Shown here: positions 26,857-35,663 of the stretch, one piece after another | How positions within the stretch are numbered: position 1 is the stretch's first letter | Layout of the letters: every line of letters begins with the position of its first letter | Assembly: GCA_017546205.1 (NCBI GenBank) | Contig: JAFYXJ010000003.1 | Coordinates: 1-64,000 of the forward strand | Source: Clostridia bacterium | GTDB lineage: Bacteria > Bacillota > Clostridia > Monoglobales > Monoglobaceae | Reading direction: 5' to 3' | Length of the DNA stretch: 64,000 nucleotides | Position numbers and translations under genes: made by a program | Notes under the pieces: model-generated | Database searches by the model: none | The model's input: only the letters and a program-made list of their open reading frames with translations | Told to the model about the DNA's origin: nothing

Positions 26857-27882
26857 TTAGATAAACTTATATGAAGTTGTAGTCTGGTATACATCGCCCT
26901 TTTTCAAGACAATGGACGGATAATGGGAAATCGCCATAGCATTGGGAAATGCCTGCGTTTCAAAACATACACCCTGATGGGAACAATAGGATGTTCCGTC
27001 TTTGTAGGTGTCAGTTTCATCCAGATAATTTCCGCAGTAAATCTGTACACCAGGAAGATCGGTATAGATTTCCATACAAATCCCCGACTTGTCTCCGGTG
27101 AAACTTCCTACCTTGCGGTATCCTCTTCCACGGAGACAGAAGTTGTGGTCAAATCCACGGAACATAACAACCTGTTCCTCGTTGGATGTATAAACTTCCC
27201 TCATCTTTCTGGACTGACGCAAGTCAAAAACAGTGCCATCAACCGGAAGAATTGCGCCATAGGGCATACACTCCTCGGTATTGGGAGTATAAAAATCTGC
27301 ATCTAACTGAACAGTATGTCCGTCTGTTGAACCGGAATCGTGACCGTTCATATTGAAATAGCAATGTTGGGTCATATTCATCAGGGTATCCTGATCGCAA
27401 ACGCCGTGATAGTCAATCTTGAACTGGTTATCCTTGGTCAAAGTATAAGTAACTTTGACGTCTGCATTCCCCGGAAACCCTTCTTCTCCATCAGGGCTAT
27501 GTAAGGTAAGAATCAACGCTGGTTCTTCCTGATCCACCATCTCACAGTTCCAGACTCTCATCATGAAACTGTCGGTAGCACCGCCGTGGAGATTGTTTTT
27601 CCCATCATTCTGGTCAAGGTTATAAGTTTTGCCGTTCAGGGAAAATTGTGCGCCCTCGATACGATTGGAATTTCTTCCAACCAAAACTCCGATACAGCCA
27701 TCATTGTTCAGATATTGTTCCATGGTATCTCTGCCAAGGGCAACATCCACCCCATTGTATACCAGACGCTTAATAATACCGCCATAACTGATGATTTCAG
27801 CCGACAGACCACATCCGTTATCCATAGTATAGAGGTAAACATCCTCTCCTCTTGCATGTCCGTAATATGCTTTTGCTATCAT
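26857..27882 (-). CDS. galM: Aldose 1-epimerase (galactose mutarotase)
   Basis: 341-residue beta-sandwich enzyme interconverting alpha and beta anomers of hexoses. The signature blocks are GIIKRLVYNGVDVALG, GVLVGRNSNRIEGAQFSLNG and NNLHGG (about 90-110), then NMTQHCYFNMNGH with the catalytic His, the family Asp near PVDGTVFDLR, and a C-terminal CFETQAFPNA with the catalytic Glu. It overlaps trmFO by 4 bp (ATGA), so it is translationally coupled to an unrelated tRNA-modification gene. galE lies about 18 kb away on the other strand. Confidence 0.95.
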   Translation of the reverse strand: MIAKAYYGHARGEDVYLYTMDNGCGLSAEIISYGGIIKRLVYNGVDVALGRDTMEQYLNNDGCIGVLVGRNSNRIEGAQFSLNGKTYNLDQNDGKNNLHGGATDSFMMRVWNCEMVDQEEPALILTLHSPDGEEGFPGNADVKVTYTLTKDNQFKIDYHGVCDQDTLMNMTQHCYFNMNGHDSGSTDGHTVQLDADFYTPNTEECMPYGAILPVDGTVFDLRQSRKMREVYTSNEEQVVMFRGFDHNFCLRGRGYRKVGSFTGDKSGICMEIYTDLPGVQIYCGNYLDETDTYKDGTSYCSHQGVCFETQAFPNAMAISHYPSIVLKKGDVYQTTTSYKFI

Positions 27883-29186
27883 ACGATCTCCTCCTTATAT
27901 TTTTGGATTTCTTCCATACTGATATTTGCAATATGTTCTGCTTTTTCTCTTTTATCCCGTATCCGTTTCTCCGGCGATGTCATAATGCCATAATTGACAT
28001 TCATAGGCTGGAAATTGGTAATTGCACCATTGGAAATATAGGCGCCTAATGCACCAATGGCGGTTTTTGCAGAAAATACACGGGGTTCTTTTCCCTGCAT
28101 CTTTGCTGCAACCGAAAGACCTGCAATCAATCCCGATGCCGCCGATTCCACATATCCCTCAACGCCGGTAATCTGTCCGGCAAAGGTGATTTGAGGATGC
28201 TGTTTCATGCTGTAATCCGCATTCAACAATTGCGGTGCATTGAGATAGGTGTTGCGGTGCATCACCCCGTAGCGGACAAATTCTGCATTCTCAAGACCAG
28301 GGATCATAGAAAACACACGTTTTTGTTCCGGAAATTTCAGGTGGGTCTGAAATCCAACCAGATTATACATACTCCCTGCCGCATTATCCTGACGGAGTTG
28401 CACCACAGCATAGGGACGGCTTTCGTCATGAGGATTGGTAAGTCCCACCGGCTTCAGGGGACCGAACCGCATGGTATCTTCCCCTCGTTTTGCCATAATT
28501 TCAATGGGCATGCACCCCTCAAAGACTTTGGGATCTTCCACTCCGTCATGAATCGGTGCACCCTCTGCTGAGATCAATGCCTGATAAAATGCCAAATATT
28601 CCTCTTTGTTCATGGGGCAGTTGATATAGTCGTCTCCACCTTTTCCATACCGTGCCGCCCGAAAGGCCTTGGACATATCAATACTTTCAAAACTGACAAT
28701 GGGGGCTGCCGCATCGAAAAAGTGGAGATAACAATCCCCAATCAGTCGCTGAATTTCCTCCGCAAGCGCATCGGATACCAACGGACCTGCTGCCACCACC
28801 GTCCATGCATCGGTCTCAAGACTGGTGATTTCTTTTTCTTCCACCGTAATATTGGGATGATTTTTAATTTTTTCAGTAATATAGGCAGAAAATCCCTCAC
28901 GGTCAACCGCAAGAGCACCGCCTGCAGGAACTTTGGTCGCATCTGCCGCTTCCATAATCAAGGAATGTAACTGCCGCATTTCTTCTTTTAAAAGACCTAC
29001 AGCATTATAGATGCCGTCGGCGCGCAGAGAATTACTGCAGACCAGTTCGGCGAAGTTCCGGCTATGGTGGGCAGGGGAGAACCGAACTGGTTTCATCTCG
29101 TAAAGACGCACCTTAACTCCATGTTCTGCCGCCTGCCATGCCGCCTCACAACCCGCAAGTCCGGCACCGATTACCTTAAGTTCCAT
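27879..29186 (-). CDS. trmFO: Methylenetetrahydrofolate--tRNA-(uracil-5-)-methyltransferase TrmFO
   Basis: 435-residue FAD- and folate-dependent enzyme making ribothymidine at tRNA U54, with carbon from methylene-THF. The N-terminal dinucleotide fold GAGLAG spans 7-12. The conserved ELVCSNSLRADG block carries Cys50, with VPAGGALAVDREGFS shortly after. The folate and FAD-binding C-terminal part includes AGQITGVEGYVESAASG. The topA-trmFO linkage is standard in Firmicutes. It is 9 bp downstream of topA and shares a gene string with the folate transporter folT. Confidence 0.96.
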   Translation of the reverse strand: MELKVIGAGLAGCEAAWQAAEHGVKVRLYEMKPVRFSPAHHSRNFAELVCSNSLRADGIYNAVGLLKEEMRQLHSLIMEAADATKVPAGGALAVDREGFSAYITEKIKNHPNITVEEKEITSLETDAWTVVAAGPLVSDALAEEIQRLIGDCYLHFFDAAAPIVSFESIDMSKAFRAARYGKGGDDYINCPMNKEEYLAFYQALISAEGAPIHDGVEDPKVFEGCMPIEIMAKRGEDTMRFGPLKPVGLTNPHDESRPYAVVQLRQDNAAGSMYNLVGFQTHLKFPEQKRVFSMIPGLENAEFVRYGVMHRNTYLNAPQLLNADYSMKQHPQITFAGQITGVEGYVESAASGLIAGLSVAAKMQGKEPRVFSAKTAIGALGAYISNGAITNFQPMNVNYGIMTSPEKRIRDKREKAEHIANISMEEIQKYKEEIV

Positions 29187-29195
29187 ACTGTTTCC

Positions 29196-31298
29196 TCATT
29201 TCTTTTTTGCTGTCGGTTTTTTGGTGTACTTACAATCCGGATTGAAACACTTATAGGTAACAGGACCTCTTCTCCGGTAAGGTTTCACTTTCATTATCAC
29301 GCTTCCGCATTCCGGACAGGTTTCCCGTGTGGGTTCATCCCAGGAAATAAAGTCGCAGTTTCCGGTATTGTCACAGGTGTAGAAAACGCTTCCCTTTCTG
29401 GATTTCCGGATGGAAACTTTGCCACCGCATTTGGGGCAAGGAACATCCAGTTCCTCGGTAATTGCCTTGGTATTCCGACAATTGGGGAATCCGGGACATG
29501 CCAGAAATTTACCAAATTTTCCTTGTTTGTACACCATCATTCTGCCACATTTTTCGCAAGGAACATCCGAAACCTCATCCTGAATTTCAATGGTTCCAAT
29601 CTTCTCTTCTGCATTTTTCAAGGTTTCTGCAAACGGTCCGTAGAAATCACGGATAACCTTCTTCCATTCTACGTCGCCGTCTGCAACGGTCTCAATTTTA
29701 TCTTCCATGTTGGCCGTAAATTCTACGTCAACAATATCTTCAAAATGTTCTTTCAGTAAGTCAGTAATGATAAATCCAAGTTCTGTGGGATAAAACGCCT
29801 TTGCCTCTTTTGCCACATACCCTCTGGCAGAAATAGTGGCAATGGTCGGGGCATAGGTACTGGGTCTTCCAATCCCCTCTTCTTCCATAGCCTTAACCAA
29901 TGACGCCTCTGTATATCTTGCAGGAGGTTGGGTGAAATGCTGTTCCGGCGTAATTTCTTTCAGAAGAAGATTTTGTCCTTCGGACAGGTTGGGAATCTTC
30001 TTCTCTTTTTCTTCCTCTTCATCCTTGCCCTCTACATATAAGGTCATAAACCCTGCAAACTTGGTTTCGGTTCCGGTTGCCCGTGCCAGATAATCACCGC
30101 ACTTGACATCCACCGTTACAGAATCCAGAACAGCATCGGACATCTGGCTTGCAATAAAACGCATCCAGATTAACCGATAAAGTTTGTAGAGATCAGGCTT
30201 CAATTTTTCTTTATTCATTTCAGGTGTGTTGCCGGATACCGTAGGACGAATTGCTTCATGCGCGTCCTGCGCCGTCTTTTTTGCCCGATAAATCTTGGGA
30301 GATTTGGGAACAAACGATGCACCATATTTATCCCCGATAAACGCCCGTGCCTCATTCTGGGCAACAGTAGAAATACGGAGAGAGTCAGTTCTCATATAGG
30401 TAATATAACCCATTTCGTAAAGTTGCTGTGCAGCAACCATTGTTCGTTTGGAGGTAAAGTTCAGTTTTCTTGCAGCCTCCTGTTGCAAGGTGCTGGTTGT
30501 AAAAGGCGGAGCGCTACGACGCTTGACCTCTTTTTTAACCACAGATTTGACAACATAGTCCGCATCTTTCAAAGCAGCAACAATTTTATTCACTGATGCC
30601 TCATCCGAAAGGGTTATCTTCTTCCCTGCAGCAGTTCCATAGAATTTTGCAACAAAGGGAAGTTTGCCTTTATCATTGGTGAGTTTCAAATCAATGCTCC
30701 AGTATTCCTCAGGCAGAAATCCATCGATTTCCCGCTCACGGTCTACAATCATCCTTACAACCACAGATTGAACACGGCCTGCACTTAACCCCTTTTTAAT
30801 CTTCTTCCACAAAAGAGGGCTGATTTCATAACCCACAATACGATCAAGCACACGGCGGGTCTGCTGGGCATCCACCAGATTCATATCAATGGGGCGTGCT
30901 TCTTTGACAGCATCTCTGACAACATCCTTGGTAACTTCATTAAAGGTAATCCGACAGTTACTTTCCGGATTAATCTCAAGCACATTGGCAAGGTGCCATG
31001 AAATCGCCTCGCCCTCACGGTCAGGGTCGGTTGCCAGAAAGACTTTATCTGCCGATTTTGCTTTCTTTTTCAGTTTTGCAATTAAGTCACCCTTTCCCCG
31101 TATGGTAATATATCGGGGCTCAAAATCATGATCAAGATCCACACCAATTTGGCTCTTAGGTAAATCACGGACATGTCCCATGGTGGCTTCAACCGTGTAT
31201 CCGCTTCCCAAATATTTTTTTACAGAATCTACCTTGGTGGGAGACTCCACAATTACAAGTTTTTTTGCAGAAGATTTCCCTGCCTTTTTCTCTGCCAT
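29196..31298 (-). CDS. topA: DNA topoisomerase I
   Basis: 700-residue type IA topoisomerase that relaxes negative supercoils. The Toprim domain opens with LVIVESPTKVDSVKKYLG (14-31) and holds DPDREGEAISWHL (91-103). Catalytic Tyr301 sits in ITYMRTDS. Three C-terminal C4 zinc ribbons occupy about 585-695 (CEKCGRMM, CPKCGGKV, CPECGSVI). The lysine-rich N- and C-terminal tails are normal. The ATG at 31298 is eight bases after GGAGG; the ATG at 31313 overlaps that site. It lies downstream of dprA, the usual Firmicutes order. Confidence 0.97.
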   Translation of the reverse strand: MAEKKAGKSSAKKLVIVESPTKVDSVKKYLGSGYTVEATMGHVRDLPKSQIGVDLDHDFEPRYITIRGKGDLIAKLKKKAKSADKVFLATDPDREGEAISWHLANVLEINPESNCRITFNEVTKDVVRDAVKEARPIDMNLVDAQQTRRVLDRIVGYEISPLLWKKIKKGLSAGRVQSVVVRMIVDREREIDGFLPEEYWSIDLKLTNDKGKLPFVAKFYGTAAGKKITLSDEASVNKIVAALKDADYVVKSVVKKEVKRRSAPPFTTSTLQQEAARKLNFTSKRTMVAAQQLYEMGYITYMRTDSLRISTVAQNEARAFIGDKYGASFVPKSPKIYRAKKTAQDAHEAIRPTVSGNTPEMNKEKLKPDLYKLYRLIWMRFIASQMSDAVLDSVTVDVKCGDYLARATGTETKFAGFMTLYVEGKDEEEEKEKKIPNLSEGQNLLLKEITPEQHFTQPPARYTEASLVKAMEEEGIGRPSTYAPTIATISARGYVAKEAKAFYPTELGFIITDLLKEHFEDIVDVEFTANMEDKIETVADGDVEWKKVIRDFYGPFAETLKNAEEKIGTIEIQDEVSDVPCEKCGRMMVYKQGKFGKFLACPGFPNCRNTKAITEELDVPCPKCGGKVSIRKSRKGSVFYTCDNTGNCDFISWDEPTRETCPECGSVIMKVKPYRRRGPVTYKCFNPDCKYTKKPTAKKK

Positions 31299-31325
31299 AC
31301 TATTTTCCTCCATGTTCCATATAGT

Positions 31326-32573
31326 TTACAGATTGTTTGCCGAATCCGGATGTAAGCTAAACTGTCCACCCGCTTGTTGCAGTACCAGTCCTTTCATTTG
31401 CAGGATAACAAGCATACTGCTCAATGTCGCGGGGCTGAGTTGACTGTGTTCTGCCAACTCATCAAAGGTGACTGTTTCATCACCCTCACACAAAATATTA
31501 AGAATGATTATCTCTTCCACACGGAATTCACCGCTACTTAACCTATGCTGAATTCTATGTTTCAATTCCTCCGGCGTGGGTTTTTCCTTCTTTTCAGGTA
31601 TCGCCTTTGGCGTATGTGGCGGATGATTTAAGTTCTCCACCGCTCCAATCACCGGTTTTTCCCTGAGAGAAAGCCCGTATGCCAGATGCTCCGGATATAA
31701 TTCCAGATACTCTTCCAGAATATCAAGTGCGTTCACCGTTTGTTTGGCGCCGTCCCGAATCAAAGAATTTGGAAGTGCCGAGGACGGATGTATTGGATTG
31801 CCCGGAACTGCAAATAAGTCCCTGTTATTTTCGGTTGCAAGACGGGCAGACATGGATGTTCCGCTTTTCAGTTCGCCCTCCACTACAACCGTACCTGCTG
31901 ACAATCCAATGATAATTCTGTTCCTTTGCTTATAAAAGTTGGGTTTTCCAACAGTCCCAGGCGGTTGTTCTGACAACATCGCACCATGACTTAAGATATG
32001 ATGATACATCTCCGTATGCTCGGTAGGGTAAATCACATCCACACCTCCGGCAAGCACCGCCAACGTAGGACCGCCCGCCTCCAAAGAACCACAATGTGCA
32101 GCCCCATCAATTCCCATTGCCATGCCGCTGATGATACATACGCCGTTTTCTGAAAGTCCTTTTCCTAAAAGTCTTGCCATGGTTTCTCCCTCTTTGGTAG
32201 GACGGCGTGTACCCACAACCGATATGCCAAGAATCCGGTTAAGGTCCGGAAGTTTCCCTTTTGCATACAGCAAGGCGGGCGGTTGATGAATATGTTTTAA
32301 CCGTTCAGGATACCGGGAATCTTCCATATCCAATACAAAAATATCTTGTTTTCTGCAATCCTCCAAAAATCGCTTGGCTGAATCCAGATTGTTTTCCATC
32401 TGCAAAACTCGTTTCAGATTCAAAACACTCAAAAATTTAGGATCAAAATGATTGGCTGAAAAGGCGTTTTCTGCCGTTTTATATTTCCGCAGCACCCGAT
32501 GTATGGTATCAGGGTCATGACCGCAGGTTAAATTCAACCAGACAGTGTAGAGCAATTGCTTCTCATCGCCCAT
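31326..32573 (-). CDS. dprA: DNA-processing protein DprA
   Basis: 415-residue Rossmann-fold protein that protects incoming single-stranded DNA and loads RecA in transformation. The central domain carries GISVVGTRRPT, ISGMAMGIDGAAH, LAGGVDVIYPTEH and RNRIIIGLSAGTVVVEGELKSGTSMSARLA; the C-terminal winged helix covers about the last 65 residues. The start is MGDEKQ at 32573 after GGGGGAT, overlapping the upstream methyltransferase gene by 11 bp. DprA is widespread in Clostridia not known to be competent; no com genes lie in the window. Confidence 0.95.
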   Translation of the reverse strand: MGDEKQLLYTVWLNLTCGHDPDTIHRVLRKYKTAENAFSANHFDPKFLSVLNLKRVLQMENNLDSAKRFLEDCRKQDIFVLDMEDSRYPERLKHIHQPPALLYAKGKLPDLNRILGISVVGTRRPTKEGETMARLLGKGLSENGVCIISGMAMGIDGAAHCGSLEAGGPTLAVLAGGVDVIYPTEHTEMYHHILSHGAMLSEQPPGTVGKPNFYKQRNRIIIGLSAGTVVVEGELKSGTSMSARLATENNRDLFAVPGNPIHPSSALPNSLIRDGAKQTVNALDILEEYLELYPEHLAYGLSLREKPVIGAVENLNHPPHTPKAIPEKKEKPTPEELKHRIQHRLSSGEFRVEEIIILNILCEGDETVTFDELAEHSQLSPATLSSMLVILQMKGLVLQQAGGQFSLHPDSANNL

Positions 32574-33354
32574 GAATATCCCCCTTAAGCATATACATAG
32601 AAATCCCCGCAGCAACACCGGCATTTAAAGATTCCACCTGCCCGGACATGGGAATATATACCCGTATATCCGAAAGGTCAAGGATCTCTTTGGAAACACC
32701 AAACGCCTCGCTACCGATAACCAAGGCACGTTTTCCATCAACCTTGGCGTTTTCAATGGATACAGCATCATGAAGAGCCGTTGCAATCACAGTAAACCCA
32801 TTATGCTTGATATCTCTGATATCTGTATCAGATACGCCCGATACACAGGGCACACGAAACAGTGAACCCATGGTGGAGCGTACCACTTTGGGGTTATACA
32901 AGTCCACGCAGCCTTTCATAAGGAGGACACGATCAACTCCCGCAGCCTCGGCGGTACGGATGATAGTCCCCATGTTTCCCGGCTCTGATACCCCGTCAAG
33001 GATTAATACGAAAGAATCCTCAAGAGAAACGGTTTCCGTTAAAGATTTGGCGGTAAGTACCGCACCCAATCCCTGGGGTGCTTCGGTATTACACAATTCC
33101 CGAAAAAGATTGTCCCGCAAAAGATATGCAGGTTTTTCCCGTGTTTCAAGGGTTTGTACAACCGATGGGTTCTTTTCGGCATAGGTTTCCGATACAAGGA
33201 AATACTGAAGAGAATCCTTTGCCCATTCCATTGCCTCCTGAACCATCCGCACGCCTTCCACGAAATACAAACCGGTTTCTTCCCGGCCTTTCTTTCGTTG
33301 CAAAGAACGAACTGTTTTCAGTACCTTATTATCTTTTCCGGTAATGGCAATCAT
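32563..33354 (-). CDS. TrmH/SpoU-family RNA 2'-O-methyltransferase
   Basis: 263-residue SPOUT enzyme. The N-terminal substrate-binding segment begins KDNKVLKTVRSLQRKKGREETGLYFVEG. The SPOUT knot carries motif 1 DGVSEPGNMGTIIRTAEAAG, motif 2 VIGSEAFGVSKEILDLSD and motif 3 IPMSGQVESLNAGVAAGI, all intact. The target, rRNA or tRNA ribose, cannot be decided from sequence. It lies between folT and dprA, with 17 bp and an overlap respectively. Confidence 0.9.
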   Translation of the reverse strand: MIAITGKDNKVLKTVRSLQRKKGREETGLYFVEGVRMVQEAMEWAKDSLQYFLVSETYAEKNPSVVQTLETREKPAYLLRDNLFRELCNTEAPQGLGAVLTAKSLTETVSLEDSFVLILDGVSEPGNMGTIIRTAEAAGVDRVLLMKGCVDLYNPKVVRSTMGSLFRVPCVSGVSDTDIRDIKHNGFTVIATALHDAVSIENAKVDGKRALVIGSEAFGVSKEILDLSDIRVYIPMSGQVESLNAGVAAGISMYMLKGDIHGR

Positions 33355-33371
33355 GGGAACACACTCCCCTT

Positions 33372-34049
33372 TCAGCTACGGATTTTCTTAACTAGTTTCA
33401 AAACAAAATATGTTAGTACGCCCTGAATGGGAAGCATAACAATATTCTTGACAATTCTGCCTGGCAGAATGCCGACGAATCCACTTCCTGCAACAGGTGC
33501 AAGGGCGATTGAATTCAAAACAATGTTCACCACAAAGATAATCAAAAATGCTAAATAAAACACTCGAATCCATGTGATAGACTTCCGATACAAAAGTAAC
33601 CCGTAAATCATACCTGCAATCCCGACAGACAACGTATAAGCCGGGAGCAGCCCTCCCTCAGGATTAAGTAAATAGCACAAAACATCCTGAATCATTCCTG
33701 TCATGCAGGCAACCAACGGACCAAATAAAAAACCGACAATGGATTGTGTCAAAAATCCAAACCCAATTCGAAGCGTTGGAGTAAGCCTAAGCATATAATA
33801 CCCCAAAACAATGTTCACCGCCATCATCAACGCAGAGATAGCGAGGGTTTGTGGTTTTTTCAGGAGACGGGCAGTCTCCTTTGAGTATCGGATACTACTA
33901 TAAATCAAAAACAGCAAAAATATACTGCCAATCACGGTCAAGCCGCTTAAAAAGTTTGAAAAAAAGGCAGAATACTGGGCTATAGGGCTCAGTACCGCCT
34001 GAAGAAATATTTTTCCTTCTTCAAGCCAAAGATCCAATGCTCGGCTCAT
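33372..34049 (-). CDS. folT: Folate ECF transporter S component
   Basis: 225-residue membrane protein of the FolT family, the substrate-binding subunit of an energy-coupling-factor importer; the shared EcfA, EcfA' and EcfT subunits lie elsewhere. After an N-terminal helix, the S-component fold shows LAISALMMAVNIVLGYYMLRLTPTLRIGFGFL, GPLVACMTGMIQDVLCYLLNPEGG and the C-terminal GRIVKNIVMLPIQGVLTYFVLKLV. The MSRALD start at 34049 has an excellent AAGGAGG. The identity is supported independently by the THF riboswitch directly upstream. Confidence 0.93.
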   Translation of the reverse strand: MSRALDLWLEEGKIFLQAVLSPIAQYSAFFSNFLSGLTVIGSIFLLFLIYSSIRYSKETARLLKKPQTLAISALMMAVNIVLGYYMLRLTPTLRIGFGFLTQSIVGFLFGPLVACMTGMIQDVLCYLLNPEGGLLPAYTLSVGIAGMIYGLLLYRKSITWIRVFYLAFLIIFVVNIVLNSIALAPVAGSGFVGILPGRIVKNIVMLPIQGVLTYFVLKLVKKIRS

Positions 34050-34055
34050 AAAAAA

Positions 34056-34091
34056 ACCTCCTTTGAATCCAGCCAACACAGCAAAAGAGGT
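34056..34091 (-). promoter_or_regulatory. Anti-Shine-Dalgarno / SD pair controlling folT
   Basis: On the minus strand the ribosome site CAAAGGAGGU (34056-34065) can pair over ten bases, with one G-U wobble, with ACCUCUUUUG (34082-34091). The latter lies between the riboswitch core and the start codon. It is also flanked by ACACAG / CTGTGT, which could close a competing local hairpin. No T-run hairpin is present, so the expression platform looks translational. Confidence 0.65.
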
Positions 34092-34101
34092 ACTCTGTGT
34101 A

Positions 34102-34220
34102 ACAGCGGGATGCGGCATCCACACCGCGACAAAACGTTCTTCGTCCGACTATCAACTCCCTGTATAGTCAGCACTGCGGCAGAAATTTTACTCTGCCCAA
34201 CGCGTGGATGCCTACTCTGT
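34102..34220 (-). ncRNA. Tetrahydrofolate (THF) riboswitch upstream of folT
   Basis: Read on the minus strand, the class features are in order: AGAGUAG, then P2 arm GGCAUCCA, CGCGUU, an added GGCAGA/UCUGCC hairpin, AGUG, a GACUAU/AUAGUC hairpin whose loop carries ACAGGGAGUUG, GACGAAG, CGCGGUG, the matching P2 arm UGGAUGCC, and CGCAUCCCGCUGU closing P1. This matches the folT-type THF aptamer as known from Firmicutes. It is expected to lower folate uptake when reduced folates are abundant. Boundaries are good to about five bases. Confidence 0.88.
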
Positions 34221-34243
34221 AATTTGATGTAATATTTTGATGT

Positions 34244-34272
34244 AATATAACAAAGAAATTCCCCAACGCCAA
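34244..34272 (-). promoter_or_regulatory. Promoter for the THF riboswitch-folT operon
   Basis: Minus-strand TTGGCG (34267-34272) and TATATT (34244-34249), 17-bp spacer. Transcription would start about 20 bases before the aptamer. A tandem TATTACATCAAA repeat lies between them. Confidence 0.6.
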
Positions 34273-34302
34273 GGTAAATTGCGGCAAATGCCGCAATCCT
34301 TG
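34270..34302 (-). terminator. Hairpin after rplT, probable terminator of the infC operon
   Basis: ATTGCGGC / GCCGCAAT with loop ATTT, extended by CAAGG / CCTTG across a small internal loop. It lacks a T run, so termination is likely weak. It overlaps the -35 of the folT promoter. Confidence 0.4.
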
Positions 34303-35486: not shown

Positions 35487-35657
35487 TGCCAAACACCTCC
35501 AAAAAAAACTTACGAAAGCATCTGCCTTGCATCCACAAAAAAAGCGGAGTACAAAAGCACTCCGCACATATTCCAAGTATAATATGGAAATAAGTCCTGT
35601 AATCAGGTTGCCCTTTTGCCTGAGGCTAAGGGGAGAAGCGGATGACTTCTGCTTTAC
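35487..35657 (-). ncRNA. infC-rpmI-rplT leader, L20-type autoregulatory element
   Basis: About 170 nt from the predicted transcription start to infC. It contains nested hairpins (AGAAG / CTTCT around TCATCCG, and CCTGATTACAGG) and ends in an intrinsic terminator. This layout and position match the Firmicutes L20 leader, in which L20 binding favours termination. Assignment to that class is from position and structure; I could not fold or align it. Together with the flanking promoters it fills the 320-bp gene-free gap 35487-35806. Confidence 0.65.
35536..35565 (-). terminator. Attenuator hairpin in the infC leader
   Basis: Minus strand GCGGAGT / ACTCCGC with an eight-base loop, followed by T7. 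It lies about 50 bases before the infC start codon, so read-through must be regulated. Confidence 0.85.
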
Positions 35658-35663
35658 CGGAAT

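Follow-up and report, generated by a model that had tools for sequence, protein, structure and literature searches.

The folT leader in the window (the whole stretch of 64,000 nucleotides that was analysed) carries the aptamer of a class I tetrahydrofolate (THF-I) riboswitch, which, with a probability of roughly 0.85, acts as a translational OFF switch on folT. The aptamer is located upstream of this folate transport gene and its 3' end is closely adjoined by an anti-Shine-Dalgarno (anti-SD), whose pairing with the folT ribosome site goes beyond chance. The same layout recurs in relatives. As a whole, the window RNA is an ordinary folT riboswitch of the known THF-I type.

Identity and fold of the THF aptamer

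The preliminary description had recognized the landmarks of a THF riboswitch and had proposed a covariance-model search as a check. This search was run and confirmed the aptamer: the Rfam THF family RF01831 matched over its full length (model 1-99 of 99) at window 34221..34101 on the minus strand with 65.9 bits and an E-value of 9.8e-13, the gathering score being 36 bits. The folT-leader aptamer is the sole RF01831 site of its own genome (1.48 Mb searched, genome 74% complete), and the family is present in 239 of the 391 genomes of the class. The closest named records, uncultured Clostridia of goat cecum and sheep colon and a RUG-series Ruminococcus metagenome assembly, point to a ruminant gut as the probable habitat.

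34101..34221, minus strand: THF-I riboswitch aptamer with P1, P2, P3, P4 and the L3-J2/1 pseudoknot (RF01831; helix and pseudoknot covariation)

THF-I control of folT, folC and folE has been described in Firmicutes (PMC9881143). Like the folT-associated THF-I representatives of RF01831, the window RNA shows a full-length match, the conserved loops and the pseudoknot, and lies upstream of folT; it differs from them by an extra hairpin in J2/3, a short P4 and a weak anti-anti-SD. THF-II, the folE motif, has a two-helix fold and precedes folE in Gram-negative bacteria (PMC6800512, PMC9881143); its reported point of action is the ribosome site (PMC9881143). Its ligand class is the one predicted for the window RNA, which matches RF01831 instead.

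Counting the RF01831 model pairs that have letters on both sides, 30 of 31 are formed in the window aptamer. Among 12 distinct relatives which also bear an insert in J2/3, 95.8% of the helix cells are paired and two-sided changes occur at 18 of 30 aptamer pairs. None of 500 shuffles equalled the helix pairing of the relatives and shifted partners left only 28-50% paired, a control which favours the counted structure because the window copy itself served to fit this structure. P1 to P3 are paired in 96-100% of the cells of the relatives, and P4 is the weakest helix with 72%. P4 (window 34121-34145, minus strand) is short and poorly paired in the genera g1 and g9, both of which bear the J2/3 hairpin. 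Both sides of the L3/J2/1 pseudoknot covary in 68 of 71 distinct aptamers, as GGGAA/UUCC in 31, as GGGGA or AGGGA with UCCC in 36 (the window has AGGGA with UCCC) and as GGAGA/UCUC in one; the remaining aptamers comprise one mismatch and two that were unread.

A model designated R1 was built from the insert-bearing aptamers and run over the 391 genomes of the class. In the sister genome G002 of the same genus, neither RF01831 nor R1 detected an aptamer. G002 has folT within the same gene string as the window, with a 614-aa gene between rplT and folT (L169, 6878-8722) that by eye resembles a glycoside hydrolase. The sequence ACACAGCGGUUUGCUGUGUCGGCGGUG before its folT resembles the expression platform of the relatives and may be a remnant of it. 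This absence, together with the short P4 and a score which is low beside the maximum of 97 bits reached within the class, could indicate that the aptamer is degenerate and non-functional in the lineage of the window as well. We consider this very improbable, as all invariant letters of the insert-bearing relatives are kept, nearly all model pairs form, and the low score accompanies a 22-nt insertion relative to the Rfam model, with insert-bearing relatives reaching similar values (61-74 bits).

Expression platform and candidate ON hairpin

The elements between the aptamer and folT follow each other in the order ACACAG, anti-SD, CUGUGU and SD:

34095..34100, minus strand: ACACAG, immediately 3' of P1, candidate 5' arm of an anti-anti-SD (ON) hairpin (relatives have equivalent arms)
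34082..34091, minus strand: anti-Shine-Dalgarno ACCUCUUUUG (complementarity to the SD, shuffles)
34076..34081, minus strand: CUGUGU, candidate 3' arm of the ON hairpin (energy tests)
34056..34065, minus strand: folT Shine-Dalgarno (SD) CAAAGGAGGU, 6 nt before the folT ATG
33372..34049, minus strand: folT, folate-family ECF transporter S component (TIGR04518, 104.4 bits with a cut-off of 60; ATG at 34049..34047)

The ten-base complementarity between anti-SD and SD with one wobble, as described before, held up. The duplex of ten pairs, one of them G-U, amounts to -12.7 kcal/mol; among 20,000 dinucleotide-shuffled leaders, 78 did as well. For comparison, leaders of relatives were taken with aptamers from same-family and class genomes; 45 of these 75 leaders reached p 0.05 for the anti-SD:SD pairing, and after removal of near-duplicates 29 of 47 did so, with about two expected. 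By eye, the anti-SD changes along with the SD, e.g., UUCCUCGUU/AACGAGGAG in L028 and CUCCGUUUAU/AUAAACGGAG in L029. The covariance-model match, the shuffles and this recurrence support the earlier proposal that folT is controlled translationally by sequestration of its SD.

According to the published THF-I mechanism, ligand at the pseudoknot site stabilises P1 (PMC11477058). We infer the ligand of the window copy, the direction and size of its response and its ON hairpin, the latter because the anti-anti-SD evidence is weak for this copy. Under scarcity of reduced folates, a hairpin would form between the downstream CUGUGUUGGC and the P1 3' strand plus ACACAG; this hairpin would hold part of the anti-SD and thereby leave the folT ribosome site more open. 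With folate bound, P1 would be locked and the ON hairpin would lose the P1 strand; the freed anti-SD would then pair with ten bases of the SD and shut folT translation.

In relatives, a stretch 3' of the anti-SD pairs with the P1 3' strand and the arm that follows it; examples read by eye are GCUGUUACACAG with CUGUGCUAGCAGU in L003 and GCUGUCACAUAG with CUAUGUUACGGC in L029. In the energy test the anti-anti-SD pairing reached p 0.05 in 40 of 75 leaders, the window copy having p 0.21, which is within chance. Over 47 leaders the real P1 3' strand opened the SD by a mean of 0.21 compared with 0.13 for shuffled strands (Wilcoxon p 0.0012), and for the window copy 28% of the shuffled P1 strands opened the SD equally. 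Folding of the window leader up to the AUG, with base-pair energies that leave out pseudoknot, ligand and ribosomes, gave an anti-SD:SD pairing of 0.98 and an SD 2% open when the aptamer was enforced, versus 0.36 and 48% open when the P1 5' strand was withheld. This contrast shrinks when 15 nt of folT coding sequence are included and is gone with 30 nt, because the coding sequence pairs with the SD region.

The failure of these models to separate the two states once coding sequence is present, and the weak anti-anti-SD of the window copy, would fit a THF riboswitch that acts by transcription termination or mRNA decay, the anti-SD pairing being a side effect. Such a route is nevertheless unlikely, since no terminator-like site, that is a hairpin with a U-run, was found between the aptamer and folT, and since many relatives also form an anti-SD:SD pairing, with other sequences. 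Translational control by SD blocking therefore remains our preferred reading.

The motif CAGAGTA occurs three times in the leader (34091-34097, 34189-34195 and 34213-34219, minus strand) and 12 times in the window with 3.6 expected. The three leader copies were considered as a strand-exchange device; this was dropped, as the additional copies are not conserved among the relatives.

An extra hairpin in J2/3

The 22-nt insertion of the window aptamer is situated between P2 and P3:

34178..34197, minus strand: extra hairpin GGCAGA/UCUGCC in J2/3, arms 34197..34192 and 34183..34178 (insertion compared with Rfam; shuffles)

The preliminary description had noted this hairpin but had assigned it to the P3 region. 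Its existence was substantiated (p 0.0005, the lowest value that 2,000 shuffles allow), while a placement within P3 is ruled out, as it lies in J2/3 both when aligned to Rfam and when aligned to the relatives. It is the sole mildly unusual part of the window riboswitch.

Inserts at the equal J2/3 position, with other sequences, are present in the same-family genera g1, g3, g6 and g9; the aligned aptamers of the same-family genera g4, g5, g7 and g8 have none. From the R1 matches and longer RF01831 matches, further J2/3 inserts were identified by eye in the aptamer sequences of the families f46, f70, f56, f40, f67, f10, f25 and f13, so that differing paired versions were found across nine families of the class. 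Of the 239 class genomes with an RF01831 match, at least 16 carry such an insert. All 17 inserts tested fold as a hairpin of 4-9 pairs, 15 of them at p <0.05, and their combined p of 8e-23 overstates independence, because inserts within one genus are related. In the genus of the window and in genus g9 the hairpin goes along with a shortened P4.

The hairpin is thus recurrent and possibly not previously described. Published work locates one folate site of THF-I in the three-way junction, and it is the other site, at the pseudoknot, which is reported to govern regulation (PMC9881143). As the published regulation rests on the pseudoknot site and not on the junction site, the J2/3 hairpin may simply be tolerated. 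Tentatively, and with rather less than even odds, one could propose that this recurrent, lineage-variable hairpin adds a fourth arm to the three-way P2-P3-P4 junction, next to the folate site that is reported to be dispensable for regulation, and tunes folding or ligand response.

Promoter and gene surroundings of folT

34244..34272, minus strand: candidate sigma-70 promoter, TTGGCG-17-TATATT, -10 extended by TG (9 of 12 match, weak alone)
32563..33354, minus strand: TrmH/SpoU-family RNA methyltransferase (PF00588; TIGR00186 below cut-off)
31326..32624, minus strand: dprA (TIGR00732)
29196..31313, minus strand: topA (TIGR01051)
27879..29186, minus strand: trmFO (TIGR00137, 630.7 bits; neighbour by conserved order)

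The 17-bp-spaced promoter of the preliminary description is present, with 9 of 12 matching positions and the extended TG. In 9.5 kb, 24 comparable matches were found, with 16.9 expected from shuffled DNA, and the promoter was rejected as strong evidence. As shuffled DNA yields almost as many matches of this kind, the promoter rests mainly on its position and on the same-genus locus L003, where the -35 and the spacer text are identical. An inverted repeat ATTGCGGC/GCCGCAAT with a weak T-run lies between rplT and the folT promoter (window 34235-34300, minus strand). It is possibly a weak terminator, so that transcription from rplT could run on into folT. Upstream of the infC region a ribosomal protein L20 leader (RF00558, window 35530-35660, minus strand) scored 58.8 bits with a cut-off of 58.7, and a strong terminator-like hairpin at 35565..35544 accompanies it.

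Downstream, folT, the trmH-family gene, dprA, topA, trmFO and galM overlap or are separated by at most 17 nt. No terminator-like site was found between the genes from folT to galM; same-strand sites fall inside genes. This compact arrangement would suit a riboswitch that coordinates a folate regulon including trmFO via one long transcript. The wider distribution of the genes argues against it. The order infC-rplT-folT-trmH-dprA-topA-trmFO is common to the genera g1, g6 and g9, with gaps within the string of up to about 270 nt in g6. Genome G005 (genus g3, same family) has infC-rplT-trmH-dprA-topA-trmFO without folT, which is found with its riboswitch on another contig, and G002 keeps the string without the riboswitch. 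Of 80 named trmFO loci, 72 could be judged for the gene immediately preceding trmFO, and in 66 of these it is topA. Among the 80 loci, rplT is directly followed by trmH in about 33 (by eye), and R1 detected a riboswitch near trmFO in one only (L175). Moreover, a switch that blocks the SD hits folT first. A regulon of this kind is accordingly improbable, even somewhat more so than control of folT by termination or mRNA decay.

Judged from gene order, infC-rpmI-rplT-trmH-dprA-topA-trmFO is an old Clostridia gene string, usually without folT and riboswitch, and the folT module is most likely a newcomer in it. Therefore the folate chemistry of trmFO is no evidence of shared control. The folate logic which the preliminary description had extended to trmFO is unsupported and was rejected, as 79 of the 80 trmFO loci have no riboswitch; the link of trmFO to the riboswitch looks incidental, a matter of inherited gene order.

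The window adds another folT riboswitch whose translational platform is readable. With riboswitch and folT placed inside an older translation/DNA gene string, it illustrates that gene-neighbourhood reasoning can mislead, and the J2/3 hairpins of changing sequence represent a natural series for testing the effect of the junction on folate sensing.
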